27,279 bases of DNA from a virus: the IMG/VR virus record IMGVR_UViG_3300029258_002211, positions 1 through 27,279 of that record; one strand, written 5' to 3'. This document shows, piece by piece, positions 10,239 to 25,059 of this stretch. The position numbers and the translations under genes are program-made. The notes under the pieces were generated by a model. That model saw nothing but the letters and a program-made list of their open reading frames with translations. It had not been told where the DNA came from and made no database searches. Position 1 is the stretch's first letter; each line of letters starts with the position of its first letter.

Positions 10239-10510
10239 CTTTCTGACTCCTCTCTAAATATCGGCGTATCCAGACAAGTCCACACTTCGTGAAAGAGCAA
10301 CAACAACACGCCAACCAACCCGACGGTAATGAAAGCAGGTAAAAGGAAGATGGTCAATAGCAATCGCGCCCAGGTTATTCCTGCTACCCACTCTTTTACA
10401 ATAAGCTCAATGTTGTAATAACCAACCGTCAATGCAATACATATACACATCATGCCTATCGTCTGAGCAAGAACATACATACTCAGCAATATCGACCAGC
10501 CGTCGTTCAC
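10235..10510 (-). CDS. Small membrane protein, 91 aa
   Basis: It has two clear hydrophobic spans: WSILLSMYVLAQTIGMMCIC followed by IALTVG (about 5-30) and LLLTIFLLPAFITVGLVGVL followed by LLLF (about 50-73), separated by a short charged loop with KEW. The C-terminus is charged (FREESER). It lies exactly between two paralogous acidic proteins with 4-bp overlaps on both sides. No family is recognised. A membrane partner for the paralogues or for nearby glycosyltransferases is possible but unproven. Confidence 0.65.
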   Translation of the reverse strand: MNDGWSILLSMYVLAQTIGMMCICIALTVGYYNIELIVKEWVAGITWARLLLTIFLLPAFITVGLVGVLLLLFHEVWTCLDTPIFREESER

Positions 10511-10683
10511 TTTATCACCTCTTCTGGTTGACCAATCTCATCTATTGTTCCATCATAGATACGACGTAATTCTTCTGGCGAAAGACTCTCAAACTCAATC
10601 TCTTCTTCCGTACCATCATCGTTAACGCGAATGGGATTGAATCCCATCATTTTCAAGAAAGCAACTTCAAGTAAATCATTCAC
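10507..10683 (-). CDS. Hypothetical acidic protein, paralogue B (58 aa)
   Basis: This is the short paralogue of the 109-aa protein at 9909-10238 (shared PIRVNDDGTEEEIEFESLSP core and a DEIGQ ending). The open frame reaches 10722, but the GTG at 10683 is chosen for three reasons. It overlaps the upstream stop as GTGA, it has GGGAGGG before it, and the resulting N-terminus (VNDLLEVAFLKMM) aligns with that of its paralogue (MNDQSEIAILKAM). The function is unknown. Confidence 0.62.
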   Translation of the reverse strand: MNDLLEVAFLKMMGFNPIRVNDDGTEEEIEFESLSPEELRRIYDGTIDEIGQPEEVIK

Positions 10684-10961
10684 TTCGCCCTCCCTCTCTC
10701 TTGCTTTACTCCCAGTGCCCACGCGTTGTGCAACAGCGCCAATAGTATTGCTTCACCCTGCGCCATCATTCGCAAAGTGTTCTCGTTCTCTACTGTACCA
10801 TTCGCCCGCGCCATCGCCCACAGCATCTCGGCCAGTGCCTTGCCAGCCTGGATAACAGCCACATACTCTTGTGACGGCTCTTCAATCAACACATCGGCTT
10901 GTTCCCGTGACACGAGTATCAAGGCTCGCTCAATAGCAATTCGTTGTTCATCGAGAACCAT
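10680..10961 (-). CDS. Hypothetical helical protein, 93 aa
   Basis: Not recognised. It appears all-helical with alternating hydrophobic and charged residues (AIERALILVSREQADVLIEE, then ALAEMLWAMARANG and AILLALLHNAWALGVKQERG). The hydrophobic C-terminal helix is too polar-flanked to call a membrane span with confidence. It starts at an ATG (or the GTG just before it) overlapping the stop of the upstream GT4 gene and ends with a GTGA overlap into the next gene. Confidence 0.6.
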   Translation of the reverse strand: MVLDEQRIAIERALILVSREQADVLIEEPSQEYVAVIQAGKALAEMLWAMARANGTVENENTLRMMAQGEAILLALLHNAWALGVKQERGRAK

Positions 10962-12247
10962 CACAGTATTCTCCCGTCGTTCAAGTAAAACAGCGGCTCA
11001 ACGTACCGCTTGAAGACATAGTCAGGATTGCGTTCCTTGCGTATTCTGGTACGCTGTGCCAGCACCGGGTTGTGGTTCAGCTCATAGGCTACACGTCCAG
11101 CGACGCCAGCAAAGTAGCTGTCGATGTCATCATAGGCTACATCAGTAGTTCCGTCTACTCCAGACAGCGCATTCACGGCACTGGAAAACTCAAAGAACGC
11201 AGCCTGATTGCCAAACACCGACCGCAGTATGGGCAGGCTGCGATTGAGCACCAAAAATGCACCACACAGTGCAGCCTCTTGTGCAATGAGACTGTATGTC
11301 TCTGACTTTGACGGCATCACAAATACATTGCACAAGAGCATCAAATCGCGCACAACTTCGCGCGGTGCACATAGGTGGAGGCTTTCGTCGAATTGGCTGG
11401 TGAAGGTCAGGTCGATGTCCGTAAGCCCCAGCGTCTCGGCCAGCGCCAGCAATTCATCTCGGTACGTCACTTTATCCCCACCGGTCGAGTGAAAGTCTAC
11501 CACCACTACCCGCACGCTGCGGTCGAGTGTGTATTTCAGTGCCGCTGCTGTGCGCATCACATACTCGACCTGTTTACCGCGATCCAACCGTACCGGGTAG
11601 ACGAAAATGGCATCCGCAGATAGCAGCTCTTTCTCTCTGACCAACCGCGCAGTGATGTCCTGAAAACCAAGATACTGAAGGATATTGGTCGAATGAGGCA
11701 CAACTGCCACGTCGTCCACACCACACTGAAAAGCCTGCGCTACACGTGGCACATCCCAGGCGTTTGGAAAGCACACTTTGCTATTTGGCATGTGGCGTTG
11801 CAGTGGGGCCAGTCGCCGATCGTCTGTCGTCCACACCGGAGACGGAGTTGCGCTGTGTACCCAGTTCAACCACACAGCAGCCGGGTGTTCCTTCGCCCAC
11901 CACCGCGCGGCGAAATTCAATGGTATCGTCGCACACTGATAAATCATGTCGTGTGTAATGATCACGTCCACGCCATCCAGCACTACATCCAGCGCGGCGT
12001 GAATGGACTTCACGTCCTCTTCCAACTGGGGATAGAACTCGACATGATTCTTGCGCTCCTTCGGTGGCGGAATGTGGCGCAGTTCAACCTCGTGCCACGC
12101 CCGCTTCGGCTCAAACTTCTCGTCTACGACGCCGATCACGGAGTAACCGGCGTCTCGGCACATTCGTATTTGTGTCTCGGCGACGATGTTGAGGCTGTAG
12201 GTTGAATCGGCCTCGTAGAAGTCGGTCAAGAGACAGATGGTTTTCAT
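10961..12247 (-). CDS. GT4-like (GT-B) glycosyltransferase
   Basis: This 428-aa protein is full length for GT4. The N-terminal Rossmann domain begins TICLLTDFYEADSTYSLN. The hinge FVYPVRLDRGKQVEYVMRTA (about 215-234) is the classic start of the C-terminal GT4 domain, and VFVMPSKSETYSLIAQEAAL with CGA (about 308-330) holds the ExxxxxxxE donor site. It is the first gene of the glycan block after the head genes, has its own AAGGAAGG ribosome-binding site and is separated from the preceding gene by 26 bp. It transfers a sugar from a nucleotide sugar; the acceptor is unknown. Confidence 0.85.
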   Translation of the reverse strand: MKTICLLTDFYEADSTYSLNIVAETQIRMCRDAGYSVIGVVDEKFEPKRAWHEVELRHIPPPKERKNHVEFYPQLEEDVKSIHAALDVVLDGVDVIITHDMIYQCATIPLNFAARWWAKEHPAAVWLNWVHSATPSPVWTTDDRRLAPLQRHMPNSKVCFPNAWDVPRVAQAFQCGVDDVAVVPHSTNILQYLGFQDITARLVREKELLSADAIFVYPVRLDRGKQVEYVMRTAAALKYTLDRSVRVVVVDFHSTGGDKVTYRDELLALAETLGLTDIDLTFTSQFDESLHLCAPREVVRDLMLLCNVFVMPSKSETYSLIAQEAALCGAFLVLNRSLPILRSVFGNQAAFFEFSSAVNALSGVDGTTDVAYDDIDSYFAGVAGRVAYELNHNPVLAQRTRIRKERNPDYVFKRYVEPLFYLNDGRIL

Positions 12248-12273
12248 TTATCGCCTTCCTTGCTCCTTGCTTA

Positions 12274-12519
12274 CTATTCTGCTAGTAAGTCGATTAGCTT
12301 GTCCTTGCGTCCTTTCGGCTCGATGTGCCGCACGTTTGGTTCTGACCAGTGTTGTGGAACGCCAAATTCATCCACGATGATATTCACCTGAATGACTGAT
12401 ATGCCCTGGCTTTTGCCTGCTCCTTTCAGCCGGTACACCAGAGGCAGCCAGTCATGCAGTGCATCCCACTCGTCTGGCACGACGACGCCCGGCACAGTTA
12501 CACTCGTGCTATTGTTCAT
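12274..12519 (-). CDS. Hypothetical protein, 81 aa, next to minor head gene
   Basis: Not recognised. It is a soluble protein with an N-terminal Thr/Val stretch, WDALHDWLPLVYRLKGAGKS, and a probable beta segment ISVIQVNIIVDEFGVPQHW. GGGGG precedes the ATG. It lies between the minor head protein and the first glycosyltransferase, so it may be the last gene of the head module, but no structural similarity is visible. Confidence 0.6.
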   Translation of the reverse strand: MNNSTSVTVPGVVVPDEWDALHDWLPLVYRLKGAGKSQGISVIQVNIIVDEFGVPQHWSEPNVRHIEPKGRKDKLIDLLAE

Positions 12520-12529
12520 CTATCCCCCT

Positions 12530-13150
12530 TCATCCCGGCCCTATCAGGCTCGGCGGTCTGCCCGGTGTACACGGCTCGTCGGTAGGCAGGAATCCACACC
12601 CACAACGAAACCCGCCACAGTTGAGTGCAGGAGACTGTGGCCTGATTCCATATTTCTCCCACGTAGAACCTCGGTATATGCGCCCGTTCATGTTCAGGCA
12701 ATCCACGCAGTGCGCTTTCGTTACCCGCGTGAGGTTGAGCACCCACTTGAGCTTCTTGTCCCGGCAAGCTAATTGCTTAGCCTCGTTCGCCACATCCTTG
12801 TACCGGTTAGCCCATAACTCTGCTCGCTTTAGGAATCCTGCCAGCGGTTGTGCTTCGGGGTTGGGGTTGCCGTCAGTGTCTTGCTTGCGCCCGACCTCAA
12901 TGGCATTTAGAAAAGCAGGCAGCCGTATAAGCTCAGTCATTATGCGGTTGCTGAGAGTGATGAGCTCTTCCTGTGATAGCTCCGACCACTGGATACCGCA
13001 CTCGGCAGCTCCTTCTCTCCACGCTATGCGCAATCCCCGGCGGATAGTTGAGCCGATGCTGTTCTGTGCTTCCTGCCACGTCATGACGCCGCGCCACAAG
13101 CCACGAACGCCTGAGCGGATACCCAGGCCATAGTCAGATTCGCCGCTCAC
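12530..13150 (-). CDS. Phage minor head protein, MuF / SPP1 gp7-like
   Basis: This 206-aa protein sits directly after the portal gene, the usual place of Mu gpF/SPP1 gp7 head-morphogenesis proteins. The C-terminal third has the cysteine-rich hallmark: TKAHCVDCLNMNGRIY (about 143-158), then CGGFRCGCGFLP, ending in a proline-rich tail. In relatives this protein binds the portal and enters the procapsid in few copies. The start is GTG with GGAGGGA upstream. It is short for the family (usually 250-400 aa) and lacks any visible extra enzymatic domain. Its last codons share a 15-bp sequence with the end of the large terminase gene. Confidence 0.8.
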   Translation of the reverse strand: MSGESDYGLGIRSGVRGLWRGVMTWQEAQNSIGSTIRRGLRIAWREGAAECGIQWSELSQEELITLSNRIMTELIRLPAFLNAIEVGRKQDTDGNPNPEAQPLAGFLKRAELWANRYKDVANEAKQLACRDKKLKWVLNLTRVTKAHCVDCLNMNGRIYRGSTWEKYGIRPQSPALNCGGFRCGCGFLPTDEPCTPGRPPSLIGPG

Positions 13151-13180
13151 CTAAATCCCTCCATGATTATATCTCTGCAA

Positions 13181-15046
13181 TTAAACAAGCTCTTTTCCCA
13201 TTGCATCTGCCATTTGCGCAATGGCAAATTCGGCAAGCTCATCTGCGCTCACTTCTCCCCGCCGATATTTGCTGATAGCGATAGCCAGCACAGCCTCGGC
13301 AGTGCCTTCTTCCGGCGGTGGAAGCGTGTCCTCTCCGCTCGGCTTTTCTCCCTGTTCTACTGCCTTGGTTTTCGGTACCTCAATGCCAAACGCTTCGTCA
13401 GTCGTCATATCGCCTGCCCCTGCCACGCCCAATGCCTGCAAGCTCACGCGCCACAGTTGCGCCAGGATACGCCGACCAGTTTCCAGCGGAATGACACCGC
13501 CCTCGACCAGCGGCGAAAGCGACGTGTTGACCAGTTGTCCGATAGCCTTCACCACGTCGGGGAAATCAGACAGACTGAACGAGTCGATGTTGACCTCACA
13601 CGTCCATTCTCCGAACGACACGTTGCCGTATTTCTCTTTGAGTCCAATGACAATGCGTGCCATCTTGCGGAACTGCGCCGCCCAGAACGTCTTGTACCGA
13701 AAGAAAAGCATGGACTGGCTTTTGTCCATCGCCAGCGCGGTCGCGTAACGCATCACGTCCAGGCCAGCCGATGACGGGTACAACCCCTCCCCCAACAACG
13801 CATGCCAGGCGAAAATGTCATTGTCTGTTTTGGCATCACCCGCACCGGTGGACATCGGCAAATCTTCTACGTCTATTGCTTGGTTCATCACCTCAGACGA
13901 CCCACCAAGCGGTGGCGGATTCGTGTCGTAGGCGCTAGAAGATTGAGATAGATTAGATGCAATGACACTCTTGACTGCCGATACAGCCCGGCTACCACCC
14001 TTCGTTTTGTACCGCCGCACGAAAGCAGCCTTGCTCTCACTCACGGCTAAGCGGGATTCCATAAATCGCCGGTGCGCTTTCAGCCATGGCCCGCCGGTTG
14101 TGGACAGCGGCCAGCCCCACAGGTCGTTGTCTTCCTTGTGGTTGTGGTGAATGTGCTGAACACACACAACAGATCGTGGGTGATCATCGCCACCCAATGT
14201 CGCACCGTCGTCTATCTTACGTCCCAGATCAGCTCGGTATGCACCGCGTGGCAGTACCGTCTCTGCCAGCGTCTTGTCGCCGCCTCGGTACGGTTCGTCT
14301 AGAATACCGGCAAGGAAGGCTTGCCAGTCGGGATAGTACCAGGTTCGGTGTGCACCACCGGTCGCCGTCGCCGACGACGTCTCCGTCCATTCACGCTTAT
14401 AGAATAGCGGACGCTTGGCGTTGTCAGGGTGGGGAATGATCTCGGCGATTTGTGCCGGGTCAATTTCGGCGATTGTCGTTTCCCCGTCCAGCGTGGAGGC
14501 ATAATAGGCTAAAAATCGGTTGCCCTTCACCAGCAGCCAGTTGCTCAGCTCCTGGATGCAATCCGTCGCCAGCACAGCCTGATTACGATCCGCTTCCCAG
14601 AACTCCTGGAATACAGCATCCGGGTCGTGGTCGCCGGACAGCTTCTCTAGGGGTTGCGCCGTCTCAGTCACATCCTCGATTGGCGATAGAGACACCTGCA
14701 CGCTCTCACCGAGTCCCCAACTTGTCCACAGCCACACTGACCATTGGGCTACCGGGCTGTATTTATACAGACGCTCAGATTCATTGACGGCCCGCTCTCG
14801 TTCAGCAGCGTTGGGGAAAGCATACCCAATGGAATCCCAACCAAGCTGTTGCAGGTAATCGGTGATGAGCCACGGGTCTACCTCACCCAGGTTACCAAGC
14901 TGGCGCATTAGTTCTTGCGGTGGCAGTGCCCACGGTCCTTCGTAATATGCTTGCTGCATCAGGCGCAGAGTTGCCTGTAGCGTTTCTTGTCTCTGTGCCG
15001 GGAGGCCACCGTTCGCGCCAGCCCACTGTTCAGCTAATGTTGCCAT
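13181..15046 (-). CDS. Phage portal protein
   Basis: This 621-aa protein lies between terminase and minor head genes, the canonical portal position. Its sequence fits: a helical N-terminus, a wing region with LSNWLLVKGNRFLAYYAS, a long helical stem region (LDVMRYATALAMDKSQSMLF), and an acidic C-terminal crown/tail (KPSGEDTLPPPEEGTAEA). Portals form the dodecameric channel for DNA entry at one capsid vertex. It is at the long end of the family range. The ATG has AGGAGAG upstream and overlaps the 72-aa gene by 17 bp. Identification rests on context and overall composition rather than a single motif. Confidence 0.85.
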   Translation of the reverse strand: MATLAEQWAGANGGLPAQRQETLQATLRLMQQAYYEGPWALPPQELMRQLGNLGEVDPWLITDYLQQLGWDSIGYAFPNAAERERAVNESERLYKYSPVAQWSVWLWTSWGLGESVQVSLSPIEDVTETAQPLEKLSGDHDPDAVFQEFWEADRNQAVLATDCIQELSNWLLVKGNRFLAYYASTLDGETTIAEIDPAQIAEIIPHPDNAKRPLFYKREWTETSSATATGGAHRTWYYPDWQAFLAGILDEPYRGGDKTLAETVLPRGAYRADLGRKIDDGATLGGDDHPRSVVCVQHIHHNHKEDNDLWGWPLSTTGGPWLKAHRRFMESRLAVSESKAAFVRRYKTKGGSRAVSAVKSVIASNLSQSSSAYDTNPPPLGGSSEVMNQAIDVEDLPMSTGAGDAKTDNDIFAWHALLGEGLYPSSAGLDVMRYATALAMDKSQSMLFFRYKTFWAAQFRKMARIVIGLKEKYGNVSFGEWTCEVNIDSFSLSDFPDVVKAIGQLVNTSLSPLVEGGVIPLETGRRILAQLWRVSLQALGVAGAGDMTTDEAFGIEVPKTKAVEQGEKPSGEDTLPPPEEGTAEAVLAIAISKYRRGEVSADELAEFAIAQMADAMGKELV

Positions 15047-15248
15047 CGTGTTCTCTCCTGCCCTCCAGGTCTTCCAGCGTCAGCCCCCGCAGTACGCGCA
15101 CCCATTCATCTGCGTTTACGGCACATATCAGACCGCCATACCAGTTCTTGAACAGCAGCCGCCCAGCCCGGTCTATGGTCATTCTGTGCGCTTCCACGAA
15201 GAATGTGTTGCCGTCTGTCGTCATTATGCCAAACGAAGTGGTTTTCAT
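15030..15248 (-). CDS. Hypothetical protein, 72 aa
   Basis: Not recognised. It is probably a small beta-rich protein (TSFGIMTTDGNTFFVEAHRM, then GRLLFKNWYGGLICAVNADE) with a charged helical end. It lies between terminase and portal genes, overlapping the portal start by 17 bp and touching the preceding stop (TAATG). No signal peptide or membrane span is visible. Confidence 0.6.
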   Translation of the reverse strand: MKTTSFGIMTTDGNTFFVEAHRMTIDRAGRLLFKNWYGGLICAVNADEWVRVLRGLTLEDLEGRREHDGNIS

Positions 15249-15454
15249 TACTCCTCATCAATCAGGTTTGCAAACAGCGTGTCGATTGCGCAATCTTTCT
15301 CTTCCAGCGCTAGTGCTGCCTCGCGTAGCAATTCGATGCACTGGCTTGCCAGAAACTCGGTCAGGTGCACGCGCGTGCTGTCGCCGGTAGTTACCCGGCG
15401 ACAGAGGCCCAGCTTGATGGCCGTTTCACGAAGCTGTCTGGCTAAGTCGTTCAT
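15248..15454 (-). CDS. Hypothetical helical protein, 68 aa
   Basis: Not recognised. It is a short soluble protein, mostly helical (LARQLRETAIKLGLCRRVTT, then CIELLREAALALEEKD). It follows the large terminase gene by 3 bp and is followed directly by the 72-aa gene. Confidence 0.6.
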   Translation of the reverse strand: MNDLARQLRETAIKLGLCRRVTTGDSTRVHLTEFLASQCIELLREAALALEEKDCAIDTLFANLIDEE

Positions 15455-15457
15455 GTT

Positions 15458-16738
15458 TTACCATCCCGGCCCTATCGGTAGTCGCCTGTCTATAACCTCA
15501 GTGCGCTCACCTGGCTGTGTGAGGTAGGCCACAGCGTAACGTAGCGCGTCCAGCATGTGATATGATTCCTTGTCCTCTATCGTTTCTGTCGGATTGCCTC
15601 GTCTGTCCATCTTGCGCCGGTAGTTACCTATTTCACTCATCAGATTGGGGCAGTTATCGTGAATGACCAGGCCAAAGTCTTTGAGCAACTGGTATACCCG
15701 GTCAATCCCTGCCCACACGTCTGAGATAGGTGGTTCGAGGAGCGGGATGCCAGCCCCGGCCCAGTCCGCCCGTGCCTGTCGCTCGCTTGGCCCTCCACCC
15801 ACCCAGGCAAATATCGTTTCACCCTTGCTCGCCCGGAGAATGTTATCGACATGTCCAGGTGTTGTTTCTCCAAATTCCTGATAATATTCCCTGTAGATAT
15901 TGAGCACGCCGTTTTGTGTATCCCACGCCAACCACACGGCGGCGATGTATGCGCCGAACGGGTCTATGCCAACGGCTCGCGGCCACAGTGCAGGTGGGGC
16001 GAAGTGCTTGACGACGTGCTTGTGCTCGTCGAATACGTCATAGATGCTTCCCTCCGGCGCAGCCCACAGGCCGTGGTAGAGGCGCAGCAGGCGTGATCCG
16101 GTCATGTTGCGCAGGCGGGATAGTGACCGCCTGCCTTGTTCTGTCCACGCTTCTTGTGTATGATCCCACAGAGTGGGATTGTCTTTGTGTGTGGACTCGA
16201 AGAACGTCAGCGGCCCATCCTTGGCACGTGTTCTTATCCAGTGCGTTGGAGGCCCAGGGTTGCAGTCTCCGATTAGCTGTGTGTACGGCATTACGGCTCC
16301 GCGTCCCGTGACGGGTCGGGTTAGGTACTCCCAGTCTGGTAGGCTCAACTCCTCGACCTGGTTGATGTATATCACATCTCTTTCGGATGATAATGTCTTG
16401 CCGGGGTCGTCCATCCCGCCAATCCAAATGCGGCTACCGTTGGGGTAGTCAATCCATTGTGGATAGCCACCGCCGTAGATGCGCACACCAGGTCCATGAT
16501 CTGTGAGTAGGTCTCTTTTTAAGGTGTGAAAGACAGTGCCGGTGATGTCAGTTTTGCGTTTGCGGATGATGGCAAGTTGTGCGTTGGGGTATTTGTAGGC
16601 CAGGGTGTGTAGCTTCCAGAGCATTGCCAGCGTTTTGCCTGTCTCGGCAGGCCCTGATAGAATGACCTCCGGCTCCCGGCATAGAATCGCATCGCGGTTG
16701 CCACCATAGAATGAATAAGGTGTCTCTGGTGTGTTCAC
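15458..16738 (-). CDS. terL: Terminase large subunit (TerL)
   Basis: This 426-aa protein is the ATPase/nuclease motor that packages DNA into procapsids. The ATPase domain has Walker A SGPAETGKT (28-36) and Walker B VIYINQVEEL (122-131) with the catalytic glutamate pair. The RNase-H-like nuclease domain starts at AVGIDPFGAYIAAVWL (about 255-270, metal-binding D259) and ends with the conserved aspartate in YHMLDALRYAVAYL near residue 400. It starts at a GTG overlapping the small terminase stop (GTGA). The length is normal. It ends in LPIGPGW, encoded by a sequence also found at the end of the minor head gene. Confidence 0.95.
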   Translation of the reverse strand: MNTPETPYSFYGGNRDAILCREPEVILSGPAETGKTLAMLWKLHTLAYKYPNAQLAIIRKRKTDITGTVFHTLKRDLLTDHGPGVRIYGGGYPQWIDYPNGSRIWIGGMDDPGKTLSSERDVIYINQVEELSLPDWEYLTRPVTGRGAVMPYTQLIGDCNPGPPTHWIRTRAKDGPLTFFESTHKDNPTLWDHTQEAWTEQGRRSLSRLRNMTGSRLLRLYHGLWAAPEGSIYDVFDEHKHVVKHFAPPALWPRAVGIDPFGAYIAAVWLAWDTQNGVLNIYREYYQEFGETTPGHVDNILRASKGETIFAWVGGGPSERQARADWAGAGIPLLEPPISDVWAGIDRVYQLLKDFGLVIHDNCPNLMSEIGNYRRKMDRRGNPTETIEDKESYHMLDALRYAVAYLTQPGERTEVIDRRLPIGPGW

Positions 16739-17082
16739 AGTTCATCCGGGTTGATGTTTCCGGTGTATTTGATGACGATCTCGCCGCTTTGTTCAGTTTT
16801 TTGTGTTTGAGTATAGCCACGCATGGCACCTTTCATTTTCAGGTACCACTTTGCGGTATGGACGTCTCTCTCATCACAGATGCTACTGTGAATCACAGAC
16901 TCAGCAACGTCAACAAGTCTTTCACATTCATCGTCATAAGCTCGCTTGACCGTGCTGTGTCCCTCAATCCACCGCTTGGCTGTGTTCCACTCACAGCCAA
17001 CACGCTCAGCTATAGTAGTGATAATGCCACCACTACCATCTATTGCATTTATAAATTGCTGAGCAGTATATTTAGAACCCAT
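16735..17082 (-). CDS. Terminase small subunit-like protein
   Basis: This 115-aa protein is directly upstream of and coupled to terL. The N-terminus (QQFINAIDGSGGIITTIAER, then VGCEWNTAKRWI) is a helix-turn-helix of the type used by small terminases to bind packaging sites, followed by a helical oligomerisation-like segment (AYDDECERLVDVAESVIHSS) and a short beta tail (GEIVIKYTGNINPDEL). It would recognise phage DNA at a pac or cos site. The noncoding 166 bp upstream is a candidate for that site. A generic HTH regulator is the alternative, but the context favours TerS. Confidence 0.82.
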   Translation of the reverse strand: MGSKYTAQQFINAIDGSGGIITTIAERVGCEWNTAKRWIEGHSTVKRAYDDECERLVDVAESVIHSSICDERDVHTAKWYLKMKGAMRGYTQTQKTEQSGEIVIKYTGNINPDEL

Positions 17083-17110
17083 ACCCCTTCGTTAGTTTTC
17101 CTCAGCCTGC

Positions 17111-17139
17111 TTGACATTCTATCCAATCCAGTGTATAAT
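17111..17139 (+). promoter_or_regulatory. Perfect-consensus sigma70-type promoter, plus strand
   Basis: TTGACA at 17111-17116 and TATAAT at 17134-17139, with a 17-bp spacer. Both boxes are exact. It is the only convincing plus-strand promoter in a window whose protein genes are all on the minus strand. It points away from the small terminase gene; predicted start is about 17146. Confidence 0.8.
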
Positions 17140-17145
17140 GTAACC

Positions 17146-17205
17146 ATCAATCAAAGATGCTGAAAGGCAAAAATGGAAACGACCCACTTGTTGGGTTGTT
17201 TTCAT
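17146..17205 (+). ncRNA. Candidate short hairpin-terminated RNA
   Basis: Starting about 7 nt after the plus-strand -10 box, the transcript would meet a 12-bp hairpin (17175-17186 with 17192-17203, 5-nt loop) preceded by an A-rich stretch and with a U-rich 3' arm. Two of the pairs are G-U, allowed only in plus-strand RNA (they become A-C mismatches on the other strand), which favours this orientation. An alternative pairing of 17175-17181 with 17226-17232 could form a longer three-stem RNA. A 42-codon frame (17157-17285) overlaps but has no Shine-Dalgarno. Confidence 0.5.
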
Positions 17206-17248
17206 ATCCCAGGCCGGAGGGTGGCCGTTTCCCTCTCTTATATGAGTA

Positions 17249-17548
17249 TCACGCATCTTTAAGCTCCCCGTTCGGTTGCAGGTAGGTAGAGCTAGTATCC
17301 TCTACCAGTCGCGCCCGTGCTACGTTTGGTTCGCATGCTGGAATGTCGGCCACCGTCAGCAGTGCCAGCCAGCGCGGTAGTACTTCCTTGGTCACGGTGC
17401 CGTCACGGAACATGCGTATCAGAGTGCATGGTGTGCCCCAAGCCGCAGCCCAATCTTCACTGGTATTGTCTGTCCCGCCGACGATCATGTGCCCTAGGTC
17501 ATCGAGACGCTGCCTCAGGCTATCGCCGGTGATGGTTACGGTAGTCAC
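17249..17548 (-). CDS. Hypothetical protein, 99 aa
   Basis: Not recognised. It is a soluble protein beginning TTVTITGDSLRQRLDDLGHM, with an amphipathic helical middle (TKEVLPRWLALLTVADIPAC) and an unstructured end. It starts at a GTG with GGAGG 7 nt upstream. It is the last gene before the noncoding gap and the terminases, and its 3' end lies opposite the possible read-through region of the plus-strand RNA. Confidence 0.6.
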   Translation of the reverse strand: MTTVTITGDSLRQRLDDLGHMIVGGTDNTSEDWAAAWGTPCTLIRMFRDGTVTKEVLPRWLALLTVADIPACEPNVARARLVEDTSSTYLQPNGELKDA

Positions 17549-17590
17549 TTATAGCCTCCAAGGTTGCGGAAGGCCACGGCGCGGGCGAAG

Positions 17591-17908
17591 TCACTTGTCA
17601 CCGTGGCCTCCCGCATCGACCAACTCTGAGATACTAGTCGGACAGTATGTCCAATCTGTTTTGGCCCGCCCTGACTGCCTAAGTGCTCGATTAGCTTCCG
17701 ACTCATTCCATAGCACCTCATCTTGTTTACGGTAACATTGTGATGAACCAGCCCATACGCAAGCCTTGACGCTGGGGCACATTAGTCCATTTATTCTCTG
17801 GCAATGAATCGTTGGCGGCATTTTTATATTCCACCACCACACATCCTGTACCATATTCCATTCCCGGCACACCCACGCCATAAACTCCCACAGCGGGGAT
17901 TCGATCAT
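17591..17908 (-). CDS. Hypothetical cysteine- and tryptophan-rich protein, 105 aa
   Basis: Not recognised. It has about six cysteines (VCREW, HCQRING, CPSVKACVW, QCYRK, YCPT) and a WWW run near residue 24, suggesting a small metal-binding or disulfide-stabilised fold. The ATG at 17908 or a TTG at 17917 (with AGGGG upstream) could start it. It follows the sugar epimerase gene closely. Confidence 0.5.
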   Translation of the reverse strand: MIESPLWEFMAWVCREWNMVQDVWWWNIKMPPTIHCQRINGLMCPSVKACVWAGSSQCYRKQDEVLWNESEANRALRQSGRAKTDWTYCPTSISELVDAGGHGDK

Positions 17909-17922
17909 CGGTCCCAATCCAC

Positions 17923-18855
17923 TTACCCCTGCCGATACCAGGTCACCGTATGCTCCAGCCCCTCGTAGAAGCTAACATCGGGCTGGTATTCTATCATGCA
18001 ACGTATCTGGCCAATATCGGCATACGAATGGCGTATGTCACCGGGGCGCGGGTCGGTGAACCGCGGATCGATGCTCACATCCAGGATCTGATGCAGATTG
18101 GACACCAAATCGAGAAGTGTGTACCGTTCTCCAGAGCCAATATTGAACACTTGTCCCACCCCATCAGGGCTCTCGCACGCCAGCAGGTTCGCCCGGACGA
18201 CATCGGCAACGTAGACAAAATCCCGTGACTGTAACCCGTCGCCGTAGATGGTCGGTGGTTCACCCTGCAGCAAAGCTGCAATGAACCTGGGGATGACCGC
18301 CGAATACTGCGATGTCGGGTCCTGGCGCGGGCCGAACACGTTGAAATAGCGCAATACTGTCGTCGGCAAGCCGTAGACGTGCTGGAAAGCGCGACAATAA
18401 TGCTCCCCGGCCAGTTTGGACACGGCGTAGGGTGAAAGCGGGAGTGTGAGCATGTCCTCTCGTTTGGGAAGCACCGGGTCTTCACCATAAACAGCCGACG
18501 AGGAAGCGTACACCACCCGGTGCACACCAACATCTCGGGCCGCGACGAGTACGTTGAGCGTGCCAACCAAGTTAGTCTGGTTGGCCGCCAGGGGGTCGGC
18601 CACGGAGTGAGGCACCGAGGACAGCGCGGCCAGGTGTATGACGTAGCTCGCACCCGCCATAGCCCATCTCACGGTCTCCAAATCACCAACGTCACCTTCA
18701 ATCAGATCAACGTGGGATAGGGCCTCCTGCAGATTGTCACGCTTTCCAGTCGAGAAGTTGTCCAACACCCGCACGGAAGCACCACGCCTGAGCAGCTCAT
18801 CAGCGATATGCGAACCGATGAAACCAGCACCACCTGTCACCAGATACAATGCCAT
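17923..18855 (-). CDS. NAD-dependent sugar epimerase/dehydratase (UDP-glucose / UDP-GlcNAc 4-epimerase-like)
   Basis: This 310-aa extended short-chain dehydrogenase is intact. The NAD-binding motif TGGAGFIGSH lies at 7-16. VLDNFSTGKRDNL (about 30-42) resembles 4-epimerases. HLAALSSVPHS follows at about 74. The catalytic serine lies in ASSSAVYG and the YxxxK pair in SPYAVSKLAGEHY, with a downstream DFVYVADVV segment. Such enzymes interconvert UDP-hexoses or their N-acetyl forms, supplying nucleotide sugars for glycosyltransferases. AGGTAGG precedes the ATG. The sequence is visibly more GC-rich than most neighbours and adjoins a broken wecB, so both were probably acquired together from a cellular genome. 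It could feed the GT block at 1-12247 (inference). Confidence 0.88.
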   Translation of the reverse strand: MALYLVTGGAGFIGSHIADELLRRGASVRVLDNFSTGKRDNLQEALSHVDLIEGDVGDLETVRWAMAGASYVIHLAALSSVPHSVADPLAANQTNLVGTLNVLVAARDVGVHRVVYASSSAVYGEDPVLPKREDMLTLPLSPYAVSKLAGEHYCRAFQHVYGLPTTVLRYFNVFGPRQDPTSQYSAVIPRFIAALLQGEPPTIYGDGLQSRDFVYVADVVRANLLACESPDGVGQVFNIGSGERYTLLDLVSNLHQILDVSIDPRFTDPRPGDIRHSYADIGQIRCMIEYQPDVSFYEGLEHTVTWYRQG

Positions 18856-18858
18856 ATC

Positions 18859-19451
18859 CTACCTTCCGACCAGCATTTCGACGATCCGCTCCGCCGCTCG
18901 ACCATCCCACAAATCCGGCACGCGTCCTTCGGGCACGTCGCCCGCCAGGATGCGCTCGATCTCCGGCACAACGCGCTCCGGCGCAGAGCCGATGACCCGG
19001 TTGGTACCCACGGTAACGGTGACGGGGCGCTCAGTGGCCGGCCGCAGCGTCACACAGGGCACGCCCAGGATCGTCGTCTCCTCCTGAATGCCACCCGAGT
19101 CGGTCAATACCACACGCGTCCGCGCCATCAGGTGCAGGAACTCCAGGTAGCCCAGCGGCTCACATAGGCCTGGCCCCAGCAGTTTCATCGCTCGCGCCAG
19201 CAACCCAAAATCCTCCAGGCGCTTGCGGGTACGGGGGTGAACCGGGAAGATGACATGCAGTCGCTCCCGCACCTGTCCCAGTGCCTCGACGATGGCGGCC
19301 AGTTTGGCCGCCATCGTCCACGTTGCGAGGCCGGTGCAAGGTCACGAGCGAACGTGAACCCTTCTGGCGGTTCGTCGCCCAGCGCGTGCCGGGCGACTAG
19401 CTCATCCAGCGCGCGAGAGGCAGAAATGGCCTCAATGGCTATCATCACCAT
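18859..19451 (-). pseudogene. Decayed UDP-N-acetylglucosamine 2-epimerase (WecB) remnant
   Basis: Three frames in succession encode parts of the C-terminal half of WecB: SRALDELVARHALGDEPPEG (from about 19420), then VTLHRPRNVDD (about 19345-19313), then AKLAAIVEALGQVRERLHVI with FPVHPRTRKRL, TDSGGIQEETTILGVP and RPVTV to the stop at 18859. Intact WecB is about 370 aa; the N-terminal half is missing and two frame changes separate the pieces, so it cannot make an active enzyme. The last frame alone (from 19314) would give a 151-aa fragment. The second frame change falls inside a perfect 14-bp inverted repeat. The DNA is GC-rich and ends directly at the intact epimerase gene, suggesting one imported two-gene sugar-nucleotide segment. 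Confidence 0.85.
19288..19318. repeat. Perfect 14-bp inverted repeat with 3-nt loop
   Basis: Bases 19288-19301 and 19305-19318 are exact reverse complements around GTT. The repeat lies precisely where the wecB remnant changes frame between NVDD and AKLAAIV. There is no T-run on either side, so it is not an intrinsic terminator. Confidence 0.95.
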
Positions 19452-20256
19452 CCTCCTCAACCTTGCTACTGCTCATCATCGGCATGTACACCACGTACAG
19501 GTCAGGCGACCCTACCAGCCCGGCGAAGTAGTAGCCATCTTCCAGCTCCTGCCCCGGCGGAGCAACGTAGTACTCCGGGTACACACCCCCCTTGTCGTAC
19601 CACTTGCACGACTCGTATAACTGCGCCAGGCCGTCGAAGTTGGGTGTCACGGCGTAGGTGATAGTGCCGTCCCACTGGCCTGTACCAGGCACCACGTCGC
19701 CAGGGTGCACGTCGCGCTGAATCGGCATCACGTACGGTTGCATTGTGTTGGCGATATGCCCGCTCTGAATCAGTGCGCCATCTTGGTACAGACGATAATT
19801 ACAATCGAGCGCGTAATCCAGCTTGGGTATATCAAGTGTGTTCACGCCGGTGAACGTGAACACCTCCCCGCTGGACGCCTCGACCGTGACAGTAATCAGA
19901 GTGTAGTACTCTACTGTGTCTGATACGATAGTCGTATGGTTAGAAGTTTCATAACCTGTCATACCTATCCAGGCCCAGCCGTCGCCCTGTTCTGTGTCTG
20001 GCGCATCCCAGAACAGCCCGATCTCTCGCGTTACGGTGTCCAGCGCCTGCACCTCGAATACCTCTACATACGCATCAGGCCCCGGCACCGGTACCGGCAA
20101 TACAGACATCGGCGGAGTAGGCAGTGGAGACGCAGTCGGAGGAACGTAGCAGGATGAAAGGCCAACAGACAAAAGAACGGCTGCGCCGATGGATGCCAGA
20201 ACAATGGCAATGCTGGTTGCCAGTCTGCTATGCTTTTTGCTCATCTCTTTGTTCAT
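19432..20256 (-). CDS. Putative lipoprotein, secreted beta-rich protein
   Basis: This 274-aa protein has a classical lipoprotein signal: basic N-terminus (NKEMSKKHSR), hydrophobic core (LATSIAIVLASIGAAVLL), lipobox-like LSSC with Cys at about 36, then a Pro/Ser/Thr-rich linker. The mature part is beta-rich and Tyr-rich (VEYYTLITVTVEASSGEVFT), without a motif I can name. The C-terminus LYVVYMPMMSSSK resembles the YLPL-type ends of Chloroflexota exported proteins (weak). AGGAG lies 6 nt before the ATG. It might be a surface-exposed lysogenic-conversion or superinfection-exclusion protein (inference). Its 3' end overlaps the wecB remnant by about 20 bp. Confidence 0.68.
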   Translation of the reverse strand: MNKEMSKKHSRLATSIAIVLASIGAAVLLSVGLSSCYVPPTASPLPTPPMSVLPVPVPGPDAYVEVFEVQALDTVTREIGLFWDAPDTEQGDGWAWIGMTGYETSNHTTIVSDTVEYYTLITVTVEASSGEVFTFTGVNTLDIPKLDYALDCNYRLYQDGALIQSGHIANTMQPYVMPIQRDVHPGDVVPGTGQWDGTITYAVTPNFDGLAQLYESCKWYDKGGVYPEYYVAPPGQELEDGYYFAGLVGSPDLYVVYMPMMSSSKVEEDGDDSH

Positions 20257-20548
20257 TGAGTACTCCTATTACTTGATCATACCTCTGTGCGCACCATCCA
20301 AGTGGCACCTTTCGTTCATCCCACGCCGGGTCTATATCGCCGATTTCAATCAGTCCAATCTTCAATGCCTGAATCAACGCCGGAATGCGTTTGCACTTGT
20401 ATGGCGCTGGAGGTAGCCCCAACTTGCGAAATAGACACCGCCACGTCTCGCGAACCGTGCCAAGCTGAATACCACCGTGATGGGCCAGCCATCGGTTCGT
20501 GCGAGTGGCGTGGCACAGAAACCACCGCTGGCGCTTGGTCAAGTTCAT
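20228..20548 (-). CDS. LuxR-type helix-turn-helix protein
   Basis: About 106 aa from the ATG at 20548 (the frame is open to 20629). LTKRQRWFLCHATRTNRWLA (residues 3-22) followed by HHGGIQLGTVRETWRCLFRK and LGLPP aligns with the LuxR/GerE C-terminal DNA-binding domain pattern (LT-RE... A.. L.....TV...... KLG). The helices after it (RIPALIQALKIGLI) also fit that family. There is no receiver or ligand domain, so it is a stand-alone HTH. It follows the lysis-type genes and precedes the lipoprotein, overlapping the latter by 29 bp. It could regulate late genes, but its target is unknown. Confidence 0.6.
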   Translation of the reverse strand: MNLTKRQRWFLCHATRTNRWLAHHGGIQLGTVRETWRCLFRKLGLPPAPYKCKRIPALIQALKIGLIEIGDIDPAWDERKVPLGWCAQRYDQVIGVLNEQRDEQKA

Positions 20549-20559
20549 CCACGCACGAC

Positions 20560-20625
20560 GCTCCTCCAGGAACCGGGGCACGCCCCGGTTGCAAGCACGC
20601 ACCCCGGCCCCAGGAAAGGAGGAGC
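20560..20625 (-). promoter_or_regulatory. Possible ribosome-binding-site-sequestering RNA structure
   Basis: The purine-rich GGAGGAGC before the HTH gene (20560-20567) is exactly complementary to GCTCCTCC 50 nt upstream (20618-20625). Between them lies a perfect 9-bp inverted repeat (20571-20579 / 20582-20590). Folded, this would hide the Shine-Dalgarno. If translation begins at 20629 instead, the structure is within the coding region. Confidence 0.4.
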
Positions 20626-20679
20626 ACACCGGACGCCCGCAGCCCAGCCACGAGAAACAGACGCCCGTGAACTCACAGA

Positions 20680-20994
20680 CTAACCCCCACCCTTTATCGG
20701 CCCATCGTTCATCATCTCATCTACCTCCAACGCAATCTGGTGTTGCGCTGCTATCTCAAGCTCGCGCCGCTCCAGGCTATTCTCTTCCGTTTCCTCTATC
20801 TGGTCGGCAATACTCAGTACAGTGGCCGAATCCACCGCTCCGTTCAGCAACTTTTTGGCTGTCGCCAGCAGGAACCGTAGCGCGCGCAGATACCACGCCA
20901 GGTCACGGCGTGCCCGAATGCGAGCGGCGCGGACGGCAGCGATAGGGTCACCTTGACTACTTTCTGTAGTCGACTGACTATTTTTTGTAGTCAT
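20680..20994 (-). CDS. Hypothetical helical protein, 104 aa
   Basis: Not recognised. It has a Ser/Thr/Gln-rich N-terminus followed by helical basic and acidic segments (AARIRARRDLAWYLRALRFL, then QIEETEENSLERRELEIAAQ). It is probably a soluble coiled-coil-like protein. It overlaps the M23 peptidase stop by 4 bp (ATGA). The first 13 codons coincide with two tandem inverted repeats that could form adjacent hairpins at the translation start. Confidence 0.6.
   Translation of the reverse strand: MTTKNSQSTTESSQGDPIAAVRAARIRARRDLAWYLRALRFLLATAKKLLNGAVDSATVLSIADQIEETEENSLERRELEIAAQHQIALEVDEMMNDGPIKGGG
20955..20992 (-). promoter_or_regulatory. Tandem inverted repeats over a start codon
   Basis: Two adjacent dyads are present: GACTAC / GTAGTC (20955-20960, 20966-20971) and GACTA / TAGTC (20976-20980, 20988-20992). 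They share the same half-site and lie immediately after the ATG of the 104-aa gene. They could be two operator sites or two mRNA hairpins; no promoter is visible just upstream. Confidence 0.55.
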
Positions 20995-21620
20995 TTCTTC
21001 TTCTTCAACATCGCGTCCACCACCGCCGGGTCCAGGTGTGCTTTTAGCACTGGCACCGGGTCAATCCATCGTATGTCTGGATGCTTGGTGAACCACCAGT
21101 GCGGTTGAAACGGGTTGCGTGCCATATCAAGATGCAAGTGGTCACCACCTGCCCCCAATGTGTAGTTTCCGATATGACCAATGCAATCGTCAACCATGAT
21201 CATATCGCCAGGCTTCCAATCGCAGCTTTCCAGATGCCAATAGCGCACCCACAGGGGCGTGCCGTCGTGTTCTATCTCGATGACCACGCCGCCGAGGTAG
21301 CTGTTGCTGTACCCGGCAGCGTAGACGGTGCCCGAAGCAATCGCCCACACTGGCTGGCCTCGATCTACATCACCCCACGGATAGTGGTCTACATTTTCGT
21401 CAATACCGGTATGGCAATAGCCATCATTCTTCGCACCAGTCGTGTCGTGCCACGCCGCGCAATACCATTCCTCAGTTGGATACTCACACGAACCAACCGG
21501 ATATGCCCACCCCTCTTCTGGCTCCGGCTCCTGTGCCAGCAGTATCCGCAGCCGAATCGCCGCATTTTCACAGGCGGTGGCAACAGCAGAAATTTCTGCG
21601 ATTTGGTCAAGAGTCATCAT
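20991..21620 (-). CDS. M23-family metallopeptidase, probable endolysin
   Basis: This 209-aa protein has the LytM/M23 zinc site: CHTGIDEN (H70, D74), YWHLESCDWKPGD (H129) and GDHLHLDM (H161, H163). Around them is the usual beta-sandwich (VWAIASGTVYAAGYSNSYLG, VVIEIEH). M23 enzymes cut peptide crosslinks in peptidoglycan. The N-terminus is a short helix without a signal peptide, so export would depend on a holin such as the candidate at 23424-23705. The C-terminus ends in four lysines. The gene is in the lysis region and overlaps neighbours on both sides. A virion-associated hydrolase is the alternative. Confidence 0.85.
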   Translation of the reverse strand: MMTLDQIAEISAVATACENAAIRLRILLAQEPEPEEGWAYPVGSCEYPTEEWYCAAWHDTTGAKNDGYCHTGIDENVDHYPWGDVDRGQPVWAIASGTVYAAGYSNSYLGGVVIEIEHDGTPLWVRYWHLESCDWKPGDMIMVDDCIGHIGNYTLGAGGDHLHLDMARNPFQPHWWFTKHPDIRWIDPVPVLKAHLDPAVVDAMLKKKK

Positions 21621-21876
21621 CGTCGTCTCCCTTCTTTCGCCAGATGCGTCTACGCCTGCTCGCTTGTCTATCCCATACCATCAACGTCTCCCACCCTCCA
21701 GCATCTACCAAGCGCATCAGGCGATTGTGTGCCGTCGTCACGCCAATAACCTCGCCGGTCTCGTGTTTTATGTGCTCGATGTAGTCCTCTTTCATAATAT
21801 CGTCAGGCAAACGCGGCGGTAGCACCGTCAGCCGTACCAACTCATTCAGCAATTCTTGCTTGCGTTCGTCGTTCAC
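21607..21876 (-). CDS. Hypothetical charged protein, 89 aa
   Basis: Not recognised. The N-terminal helical region (NDERKQELLNELVRLTVLPP) is followed by IEHIKHETGEVIGVTTAHNR and a very basic stretch (RQASRRRRIWRKK), then an acidic tail of consecutive aspartates. It might bind nucleic acid through the basic patch. It starts at a GTG with GAGGAAG upstream; it overlaps the M23 gene by 14 bp. Confidence 0.6.
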   Translation of the reverse strand: MNDERKQELLNELVRLTVLPPRLPDDIMKEDYIEHIKHETGEVIGVTTAHNRLMRLVDAGGWETLMVWDRQASRRRRIWRKKGDDDDDS

Positions 21877-22754
21877 AGCACTTCCTCTGTGCGTAGGTCT
21901 TGCGTTCTGGCAAACGGGTGAATCTTGAATAGCTCGCCGTCCACGATCTCCAGCGCCACCATGCCGTCAGTGATGAGGTACTTTGACTGCGACACTTGCT
22001 GGCCGTGTTCGCTCAGGCCACAATACGCTGGCAATACGAGGAAGTCCGCTGTCCAGAATGTTACAATCCCGTTTACATCATCACGCCGCACTCGCACAGT
22101 TTCCCACATTGCTTTGTGATAATGTGAGCGCAACACGACGCGCGGCGGCTCGTTCCCTCGCGCCAATTCTTGCAGCATTATGCTTTTGGCATAATACCGC
22201 AACTGGTTGCCTTCCGTCCATATACGGATGCCGGTCGATGGGCCATGATGAGCGTAGTCGATACTCACGCCGTCCACGTTCGCCAGGCCGTGGCGCAGAG
22301 CCATGATGTCCAGGTTTGGGTGCATACTGCATAGTTGCTCGGCGACCAGTATCTCTGCCGATGCCTCGCCAAATCCATGTGCCCCCGTGCCCTGCACCAG
22401 TCGCACTGCCGATAGGGTAGGCAGAGCAAAAATCGGTGCGAAATTCGCCACGGCGATGAGAATCTGATCTGCCATCCGCGTCCCGACGAGTTGCTGTGGA
22501 TACTTGTTCCCCTGACAGATATCACCGCCGTGAATGACCACGATCGGATCGTCGCCCGCCAACTGCTTTACATTGTCAACGTCCTGAATGTAGTTTTCCC
22601 ACAAGTATTCTTGTACCGGTCCTGGTCTTGGATGCCAGCGCACCAGGCGCCCGTTTTCATCCTCTTCGTATAGCTCGACTGCCGGATTCATCAAGCCTAG
22701 CTTGTGCCCGCCGTGGCTATCCGCGAAGACCAGAACTATTTTTCGTGTGCTCAA
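21873..22754 (-). CDS. Calcineurin-like metallophosphoesterase
   Basis: This 293-aa protein shows the ordered motifs of the superfamily: FADSHGGHKLG (D12, H14), VVIHGGDICQG (GD at about 77), a probable G-x-H segment (TGAHGFGE), and C-terminal histidines in YAHHGPS and LRSHYHK that complete the two-metal site. These enzymes hydrolyse phosphodiesters or monoesters; the substrate cannot be read from sequence. The start is probably TTG, 4 nt after the stop of the coiled-coil gene, with GGCGGA before it. Phage examples include DNA-repair-type and nucleotide phosphoesterases, but it lies among lysis genes here. Confidence 0.82.
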   Translation of the reverse strand: MSTRKIVLVFADSHGGHKLGLMNPAVELYEEDENGRLVRWHPRPGPVQEYLWENYIQDVDNVKQLAGDDPIVVIHGGDICQGNKYPQQLVGTRMADQILIAVANFAPIFALPTLSAVRLVQGTGAHGFGEASAEILVAEQLCSMHPNLDIMALRHGLANVDGVSIDYAHHGPSTGIRIWTEGNQLRYYAKSIMLQELARGNEPPRVVLRSHYHKAMWETVRVRRDDVNGIVTFWTADFLVLPAYCGLSEHGQQVSQSKYLITDGMVALEIVDGELFKIHPFARTQDLRTEEVL

Positions 22755-22758
22755 GCGG

Positions 22759-23331
22759 CTATCCGCCTATCCCGCTCCCGGCGAGTGGTCCAGTTTTGCG
22801 CCGCTTCCGGGTCACTGGATCGTAGCCGAGTTCTTCTCGCACCCACCCGCACAGGTCCTCATACTGCCGCTGCAGGGAGGCAATGATTTCGTCTCGGCGC
22901 TTGACCTGCGCCTTCAGCGACTCGATCTCTGCCGCTTGCTCTCGTTGCACTACTAGCATTTCTTCTATTGTAGCATTGAGCTTGTCACGGTCACGTTGCA
23001 CCTTTTCAAGCTCGCGTTCGAGTATGACGACGTGGCCCATCATGTCGTTAGCGTGTTTGCGTGCAGCTTCCCGCTCTGCCGTTCGCTCCGTTCGTTCTTG
23101 TGCTATCAACTCCTGCATTTGGTCCAGGAGCTCATTCGACGTAGCGGTAAGCCGAGCAGACAATTCAGCATCTGTGAGCGCACGTGTGCGGTTGGCCTCG
23201 GCGGTGGCAAGATCGGTCTGTGCATCGAGATGGCGCGCTTCCGGTCTGGCCTTGAGTAGTGCCACAATGGCCGTGGCAAGCGCGCCAATGCTGGCTAGCG
23301 CAGTGATGATCTGTGCGACGTCAGGAGGCAT
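22759..23331 (-). CDS. Membrane-anchored coiled-coil protein (spanin- or tail-chaperone-like position)
   Basis: This 190-aa protein has an N-terminal hydrophobic segment (IITALASIGALATAIVALL, about 8-26), then a long heptad-rich region from about 35 to 160 (AQERTERTAEREAARKHAND, ELEKVQRDRDKLNATIEEML). It ends with a basic tail. An N-in anchor plus a periplasmic coiled coil is the layout of inner-membrane spanins, and it lies between a holin-like and an endolysin-like gene. However, no outer-membrane partner lipoprotein is nested in it. AGGAGG lies 6 nt before the ATG. Confidence 0.6.
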   Translation of the reverse strand: MPPDVAQIITALASIGALATAIVALLKARPEARHLDAQTDLATAEANRTRALTDAELSARLTATSNELLDQMQELIAQERTERTAEREAARKHANDMMGHVVILERELEKVQRDRDKLNATIEEMLVVQREQAAEIESLKAQVKRRDEIIASLQRQYEDLCGWVREELGYDPVTRKRRKTGPLAGSGIGG

Positions 23332-23416
23332 GGAACGCCTCCTGAGTTACGAAGACAGGGCTAACGATGAGTAGCCACAGTGATTCTATCCCCTCGGTGA
23401 TGACAGCGACGTTCAC
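23321..23416 (-). CDS. Possible small membrane peptide, 31 aa
   Basis: A GTG at 23416 starts a 31-codon frame that fills the gap between the holin-like gene and the coiled-coil gene and overlaps the latter's start by 11 bp. The product, VNVAVITEGIESLWLLIVSP then VFVTQEAFHAS, has one short hydrophobic span. The ribosome-binding site is weak. It could be an antiholin-like peptide or chance. Confidence 0.4.
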   Translation of the reverse strand: MNVAVITEGIESLWLLIVSPVFVTQEAFHAS

Positions 23417-23423
23417 CGCTTGG

Positions 23424-23705
23424 CTATTTCTTGGTGATAAGATACACGGCCTGGTTGGCGATGAGCGCCTCGATGACCAGCTTGACCAGCCCAAGCGCTC
23501 CGGCCTTGTCACACACGATCATATCCACGATCCCGCCACAGGCCAAGCCGAAGACAGACAGCCCGACGGCGACCAGAAGACCCCCCATCACCATCTGTTT
23601 GTAGCTGGATTCCAATCCTTCAAACCAACCTTTGACGCCGGGGACATACGAGAAGAAAAGTGAAAGCACAATACCAGCAATGGCACTCAGTTCGTCAGCA
23701 GACAT
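23424..23705 (-). CDS. Holin-like small membrane protein
   Basis: This 93-aa protein has an excellent ribosome-binding site (AGGAGGT 6 nt before ATG). It has a weakly hydrophobic N-terminal segment (LSAIAGIVLSLFFSYVPGV), a strong span (MVMGGLLVAVGLSVFGLACG followed by GIVDMIV) and a third hydrophobic stretch (LGLVKLVIEALIANQAVYLI) before a double-lysine end. Size, span number and position as first gene of the lysis group fit a holin, which would permeabilise the membrane to release the M23 endolysin. It is the first gene downstream of the promoter-terminator leader at 23800-23923. Confidence 0.65.
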   Translation of the reverse strand: MSADELSAIAGIVLSLFFSYVPGVKGWFEGLESSYKQMVMGGLLVAVGLSVFGLACGGIVDMIVCDKAGALGLVKLVIEALIANQAVYLITKK

Positions 23706-23799
23706 TTCTTACCTCCTGTGTGAAACTTGATTTTTGACAAGATGAGATGATAGCAAGCCCACCACCACCCCATACCGCCATCCTCCCAAGATTGAGAAC

Positions 23800-23827
23800 A
23801 AAAAAACCCCACGCATATTGCGTGGGG
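23800..23827 (-). terminator. Strong intrinsic terminator
   Basis: A perfect 9-bp stem (23807-23815 with 23819-23827, 3-nt loop) is followed on the minus strand by seven T (bases 23800-23806 on plus are A). It ends the ParB-like operon and would also terminate RNAs started at the promoter at 23894-23923. Confidence 0.93.
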
Positions 23828-23845
23828 CCTACTGCTCCCTGACTC

Positions 23846-23869
23846 GCACCGGGCCAACTGCGCCGGTGC
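23846..23869 (-). other. Hairpin upstream of terminator
   Basis: A 7-bp GC-rich stem (23846-23852 with 23863-23869, 10-nt loop) lies between the promoter start site and the terminator hairpin. It has no T-run of its own; it may be a pause or antiterminator-recognition element. Confidence 0.6.
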
Positions 23870-23893
23870 TGCTATTCGATTGTTATATTGAAG

Positions 23894-23923
23894 ATTATAC
23901 CACGATTATGAGTAATATGTCAA
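23894..23923 (-). promoter_or_regulatory. Consensus sigma70-type promoter, minus strand
   Basis: TTGACA (minus strand of 23918-23923), an 18-bp spacer, then TATAAT (23894-23899); both boxes are exact. The -35 box contains the stop codon of the ParB-like gene. It fires toward the two hairpins and the lysis genes. Confidence 0.85.
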
Positions 23924-24468
23924 GTACTGTGCTTGACTTTCTCATAGTGCGCGCAGGTCGTGCAATCACCACCTTGTGCGTATACCTTGCACACGTGGCT
24001 TTTGTCGTATGTGCACGGCTTGCGCTCCCACGCTGGCCGTCCGCTAGGGAGCGTGGGCGAATAGAAAGCGGGCAAGGTCTCGACACCTGCTTCCCGTGCC
24101 GCCAGCCAGCGTCGTCGGTTTATGCTAACCAGATGTCCATCTTTCGCGTTCTGTACCACGAAGATGGGCGGGGGGCGGTGTCCCTCTTTGAACCACTCGA
24201 TGTACTGCTGAGTGGTTTTGTACCGAAGGGCGAATTCCCATTCGCCCTCGCTTGGACGAACCTCGTCAACACCCACATCGACCAGCGCGTAAATCAGGCC
24301 GTCCTTGTCCATCGCCCAATCGTAATCGGGCACGTAGTCGGGACGGTTCAGCTTCTGGCTCTCGCGCTGAAACGGGTAACGGTCGTAGTTCTGCCGCGCC
24401 CGCTCCAAATCCACGTTGGCCTCGATCCACTCTTGAGTGATGTCATTAGCCTGGTCTATGGTCAGCAT
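23920..24468 (-). CDS. ParB/sulfiredoxin-like domain protein with Cys-rich tail
   Basis: This 182-aa protein's middle (about residues 95-145) has the ParB-like layout: PPIFVVQNAKDGHLVSINRR followed by RWLAAREAGVETLPAF. That matches the strand, -DG-H--NG-RR-, helix and A--AG pattern of the ParB/Srx fold (nucleases, serine kinases, DNA-binding proteins). It lacks the classical GERR helix. The C-terminus has four cysteines and a histidine (CTYDKSHVC, then CTTCAHYEKVK), probably zinc-binding. The ATG at 24468 is preceded by GGAG. It is the last gene of the operon driven by the 25031-25059 promoter. Its molecular function is open; regulation or DNA modification are candidates. Confidence 0.62.
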   Translation of the reverse strand: MLTIDQANDITQEWIEANVDLERARQNYDRYPFQRESQKLNRPDYVPDYDWAMDKDGLIYALVDVGVDEVRPSEGEWEFALRYKTTQQYIEWFKEGHRPPPIFVVQNAKDGHLVSINRRRWLAAREAGVETLPAFYSPTLPSGRPAWERKPCTYDKSHVCKVYAQGGDCTTCAHYEKVKHST

Positions 24469-24694: not shown

Positions 24695-24702
24695 CGTTTC
24701 AC

Positions 24703-25002: not shown

Positions 25003-25030
25003 CGTCTGCCCCCCTCTCTAAGATGACATT

Positions 25031-25059
25031 ATTATAACAGATTACTAGCCAGTTGTCAA
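25031..25059 (-). promoter_or_regulatory. Perfect-consensus sigma70-type promoter, minus strand
   Basis: TTGACA (minus strand of 25054-25059), exactly 17 bp, TATAAT (25031-25036). It is preceded upstream by a terminator, so it starts an independent operon (24703-25002, 24446-24694, 23920-24468). The spacer resembles that of the promoter at 25603-25631. Confidence 0.9.

Follow-up and report, generated by a model that had tools for sequence, protein, structure and literature searches.

An antisense-facing consensus promoter in the gap upstream of the phage terminase genes: a candidate source of a cis-antisense RNA against the late operon

The window analysed here is the whole stretch 1-27,279 (27,279 nucleotides) of IMG/VR virus record IMGVR_UViG_3300029258_002211, and in the gene set that we used all of its genes lie on the minus strand, as the initial annotation had described it. 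Directly upstream of the terminase genes a perfect promoter faces the other way, and the question that this locus raises is what such a promoter would make and for what. The setting is given by the following features.

13181-15046: portal protein (phrog_10963)
15458-16738, minus strand: terL, large terminase (PF04466, phrog_2)
16735-17082, minus strand: terS, small terminase, assigned by position and by relatives that adjoin TerL
17111-17139, plus strand: sigma-70-type promoter, TTGACA-17-TATAAT
17249-17548, minus strand: gene upstream of terS, with a codon score in the coding range
20991-21620: M23 endopeptidase

TerL, the protein in the TerS position, the portal protein and the M23 endopeptidase mark this as a late operon. 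Searches of Pfam and PHROG gave no match to terS, and a search for relatives of the gene at 17249-17548 found none. Downstream of the portal gene, the region 1-12247 (minus strand) holds, by eye, many glycosyltransferases and methyltransferases and not capsid genes, which is odd for a late operon, and positions 1-144 recur at 475-618 with zero mismatches, so that the end of the contig holds either a repeat or a fork in the assembly. A replication origin at ∼17 kb was considered and rejected, the GC skew showing no lasting switch there.

The promoter consists of TTGACA (17111-17116), a 17-nt spacer and TATAAT (17134-17139), and this exact match stands in the noncoding gap of 166 bp (17083-17248) that had been described upstream of terS. 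Its description as the lone strong promoter of the plus strand also holds, since the best other plus-strand site within 8000-27279 scores 9/12 and the other two perfect promoters are on the minus strand, pointing along the operon. The whole window thus contains three perfect promoters, as against none in 100 dinucleotide-preserving shuffles, and the three longest stretches between genes (166, 214, and 220 bp) each have one of these promoters inside or starting at most 4 bases away. Given this excess over shuffled sequence and this placement, the plus-strand promoter almost certainly owes its existence to selection, be it current or bygone. Judged by the promoter sequence alone, no phage factor is required, which would fit action early in infection or during lysogeny.

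Could the product be a small protein? The reading in which the plus-strand transcript is translated from an ATG at 17157 into a 42-residue peptide draws on a 42-codon ORF (17157-17285, plus strand) that opens ∼11 nt past the predicted transcription start. This ORF lacks a Shine-Dalgarno sequence, has a codon score like that of non-coding plus-strand ORFs and lower than those of 99% of equally long (42-codon) slices from real genes, and found no match by tblastn against phages even at E 10. On these three grounds we rejected the small protein, which we regard as very improbable, and the translated, conserved ORF that the initial annotation had named as the challenge to its RNA reading did not materialize. 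It is the sole notable ORF that overlaps the predicted transcript. The promoter, the ORF score and the folding described below are together probably best read as a non-coding transcript of the plus strand.

The predicted transcript and its pairing elements are as follows.

17146-17265, plus strand: candidate short RNA, its start placed from the −10 element
17173-17205, plus strand: 14-bp hairpin (17173-17186 with 17192-17205), with a 5-nt loop and two G-U pairs on this strand
17153-17160 with 17253-17260, plus strand: closing stem of the predicted fold
17175-17181 with 17226-17232, plus strand: alternative stem, energetically disfavoured

The hairpin had been noticed before, as one of 12 bp; it is present, with a length of 14 bp. 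Stems of at least 14 bp arose in 3 of 2,000 shuffles of the gap, and they also occur at three other sites in the window, on one or both strands. On the plus strand both the hairpin and the closing stem have pair probabilities near 1; the latter is new to this analysis, and its 3′ arm (17253-17260) overlaps the final codons of the 17249-17548 gene. The outer stem that had been proposed as an alternative does exist in the sequence, although it is 4.2-5.7 kcal/mol worse than the main fold and has a probability below 0.002. Folding of 17146-17265 gives z = −3.5 on the plus strand (a single test); the minus strand yields z = −2.65. With a variable 3′ end, 34 of 1,500 shuffles fold equally well or better, which suggests a plus-strand fold modestly better than chance.

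On the minus strand the two G-U pairs turn into A-C mismatches, and the pair probability of the hairpin core is therefore reduced to 0.62. The earlier argument that the G-U pairs make sense only on the plus strand consequently stands for the hairpin; it is not a clean one, because the closing stem, 8 bp on the plus strand, can be extended with a G-U pair to ∼10 bp on the minus strand, where its probability is 1. With this stem at least as strong on the minus strand, the pairing evidence is mixed and leans to the plus strand, for which we see a modest preference. The stem, together with the minus-strand z-score and a run of five T that follows the hairpin on that strand, would suit nested repeats that act in the late mRNA, serving its processing, stability or weak termination between 17249-17548 and terS. 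We consider this quite improbable, as the mismatches weaken the hairpin, the minus-strand terminator score is poor (see below) and the plus-strand promoter is left unexplained.

The initial annotation had the RNA end in the hairpin, a claim that scoring for intrinsic terminators did not support. By a score of the d'Aubenton-Carafa type (our own implementation) the hairpin reaches −13.5 on the plus strand and −17.2 on the minus strand, compared with +54 and +35 for the two clear terminators of this phage under the same scoring. The best plus-strand value is thus well short of the intrinsic terminator expected of a discrete small RNA gene, and since the hairpin does not score as one, the predicted transcript may continue antisense to 17249-17548, its 3′ end perhaps being formed by a route other than intrinsic termination. 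This result also bears on a trans-acting small RNA, a discrete species of 60-115 nt that would act on host or other phage mRNAs. Its own strong promoter, the intergenic site, the stable predicted hairpin and the precedent of small intergenic RNAs in phage PAK_P3 (PMC4933390) speak for such a molecule, but we found no good intrinsic terminator, no homologue and no Rfam match at gathering scores (the weak matches being at chance level), and we hold it to be rather unlikely.

Other RNA-like elements lie elsewhere in the window, on the minus strand. At 23795-23923 a perfect promoter with an extended −10 precedes a predicted RNA of ∼95 nt that folds strongly (z −6.4), with a strong terminator (23830-23804) just before a small gene at 23424-23705 that is holin-like by eye, and with the M23 endopeptidase and terminase genes farther on. 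In layout this resembles the lambda pR′-6S-tR′ arrangement for late control by antitermination, and as a candidate RNA it surpasses the plus-strand element at 17111. Translation of the 23424-23705 gene is possibly controlled by a 14-bp, G-U-rich hairpin (23742-23773) situated between its Shine-Dalgarno sequence and this terminator at 23.8 kb. A clear border between transcription units lies at 25031-25181, where a strong terminator (25181-25157) gives way to a perfect promoter with an extended −10 (25059-25031) ahead of the gene at 24703-25002.

Relatives of the element were sought at several levels. Blastn of the gap against phages and plasmids returned chance-level pieces only, and pattern scans of IMG/VR either came back empty or hit coding sequence with no relation to it. 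With three aligned TerS sequences as query, a search yielded 18 phage loci with a homologous TerS, and the promoter and repeats are absent from all of them, a weak test given that the closest TerS is 57% identical. What several of these loci share is a short leader.

17083-17100, minus strand: conserved terS leader with a Shine-Dalgarno-like AAGGGG, outside the plus-strand element

The leader is identical over 18 bp in L141, the closest TerS relative, and similar in other TerS relatives. Similarity to L141 stops at 17100 and the promoter starts 10 bases farther, which places the element outside the conserved terS cassette. The AAGGGG of this leader (17082-17103, minus strand) lies 1 or 2 bases from the ATG here versus ∼7 in L141, so that terS may have another start, or be translated differently, in this phage. 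Relatives by TerL (L010, 70%; L089, 64%, from a Dehalococcoidia MAG and the closest cellular relative; L009, 61%) have other genes before TerL and no such gap, and where upstream DNA is present among those at 50-70% (L009-L013 and L089) it shows neither a comparable gap nor an antisense promoter. Across 81 loci we looked for an antisense promoter that recurs upstream of TerL and found none; in the one near case, L084, it lies inside a terS coding region. In the collections searched, the ∼150-bp element therefore looks specific to this phage, although such collections may omit very near relatives and the absence is accordingly not proof.

These comparisons weigh on the proposal that the locus is a packaging site (pac or cos), in which the repeats would be DNA binding or cutting sites for the terminase and transcription would be incidental. 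In phage SPP1 the late promoters, the ribosome-binding site and the start of gene 1 all overlap with pac; PL1 and PL2 are late promoters in sense orientation that serve the region upstream of gene 1, PL1 having an atypical −35 (PMC6316719). Our locus is like that region in that a promoter immediately precedes the gene for the small terminase, and unlike it in that this promoter points antisense, its −35 is perfect and any pac function is putative. The TerL, of the PF04466 type, would be compatible with such a site. The conserved sequence before terS (17083-17100) falls outside the proposed RNA, the homologous loci share only the short leader, and a pac site does not need a perfect promoter. 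Its location being the sole point in its favour, we rate a packaging role as improbable.

The phi29 pRNA is a small phage RNA near packaging functions, and it belongs to the phi29-type motor. The suggestion in the initial annotation of an RNA that assists packaging recalls it, as here too a candidate small RNA sits beside packaging genes; the present phage, however, has TerS and TerL (PF04466/phrog_2) and not a phi29-type motor, and its candidate RNA gave no Rfam match.

The border at 17100 also admits an accessory insertion (moron), or a part or remnant of one, whereby the promoter would have arrived with foreign DNA upstream of terS, once served a plus-strand gene or RNA, and would now fire without a selected role. 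Consistent with this, similarity to the closest TerS relative ends 10 bases before the promoter, the element occurs in no relative, and two genes encoded before terS, for an epimerase and for a C-terminal piece of phrog_29538, look like accessory cargo. The latter gene (18859-19314, minus strand) encodes a 151-aa protein that looks truncated, because its match covers the C-terminal part of phrog_29538 only (236-378 of 383). A perfect 14-bp palindromic hairpin (19288-19318) is found at the start of the same gene. Against an inserted remnant, all 12 promoter letters are intact, which speaks for continued selection or a recent event, and there is no trace of a plus-strand gene, the downstream plus-strand ORFs lying opposite genes. 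We regard such an insertion as unlikely, though worth keeping in view.

With all genes in the set used on the minus strand, any plus-strand product is antisense to the late message, and the antisense option of the initial annotation was right by geometry: a transcript from this promoter would oppose the late operon, and also 17249-17548 if it runs past 17248. Its option of a regulatory RNA is likewise a reasonable one, the promoter being beyond chance, the ORF non-coding and the plus strand the better folding. We tentatively favour a cis-antisense RNA with a regulatory role, fired by a promoter of the host-sigma type and opposing the late operon where it enters terS-terL; its transcription and length, like that role, we infer from the sequence. 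A consensus promoter for the main sigma factor of the host would fire a short, folded, non-coding RNA into the minus-strand late operon, and this RNA would match the late mRNA with full complementarity immediately before terS-terL-portal. This RNA could pair with the late mRNA, and convergent transcription would meet the late polymerases, the most likely result being that less transcription carries on from the lysis and accessory genes upstream into those for packaging. Such damping would operate while late transcription is weak, early in infection or in lysogeny, and strong late transcription would override it. Weighing against this account are the lack of a clear terminator, a fold that is only modestly unusual, a closing stem that is at least as good on the minus strand, and TerS relatives that do without the element.

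Lambda OOP, a short RNA made from its own promoter, targets cII in the early region and ends at a clear terminator. The RNA predicted here is similar in being short, having its own promoter and lying opposite to a phage operon, and differs in that the operon is a late one and no clear terminator follows. OOP and other lambdoid antisense RNAs are cited in passages of PMC4933390 and PMC5869508. A closer likeness in target is offered by the Pseudomonas phage PAK_P3, whose 20 antisense RNAs, 15 from the structural region and stronger early, are proposed by its authors to hold back late genes or prevent late leak, and which also makes small intergenic RNAs of ∼100 nt late in infection (PMC4933390). 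Both cases would set antisense RNA against late or structural genes to restrain leaky late transcription; there, however, the RNAs were seen by RNA-seq and nearly all lie inside genes, whereas here a single promoter in an intergenic gap is known from sequence alone. Our literature search found no direct precedent for an antisense RNA specifically at terS.

Phage antisense RNAs are an already known form of regulation, to which the element described here, an orphan, would belong. That it represents a new kind of phage RNA, a host-sigma antisense RNA with a closed fold through which terminase expression or DNA packaging would respond to the state of late transcription, we think highly improbable. 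The terminase of this phage has relatives in Chloroflexota, a group for which we found no phage transcription data. If real, the element would offer a clean example of antisense control, exerted by a single promoter, where a phage packaging operon begins.
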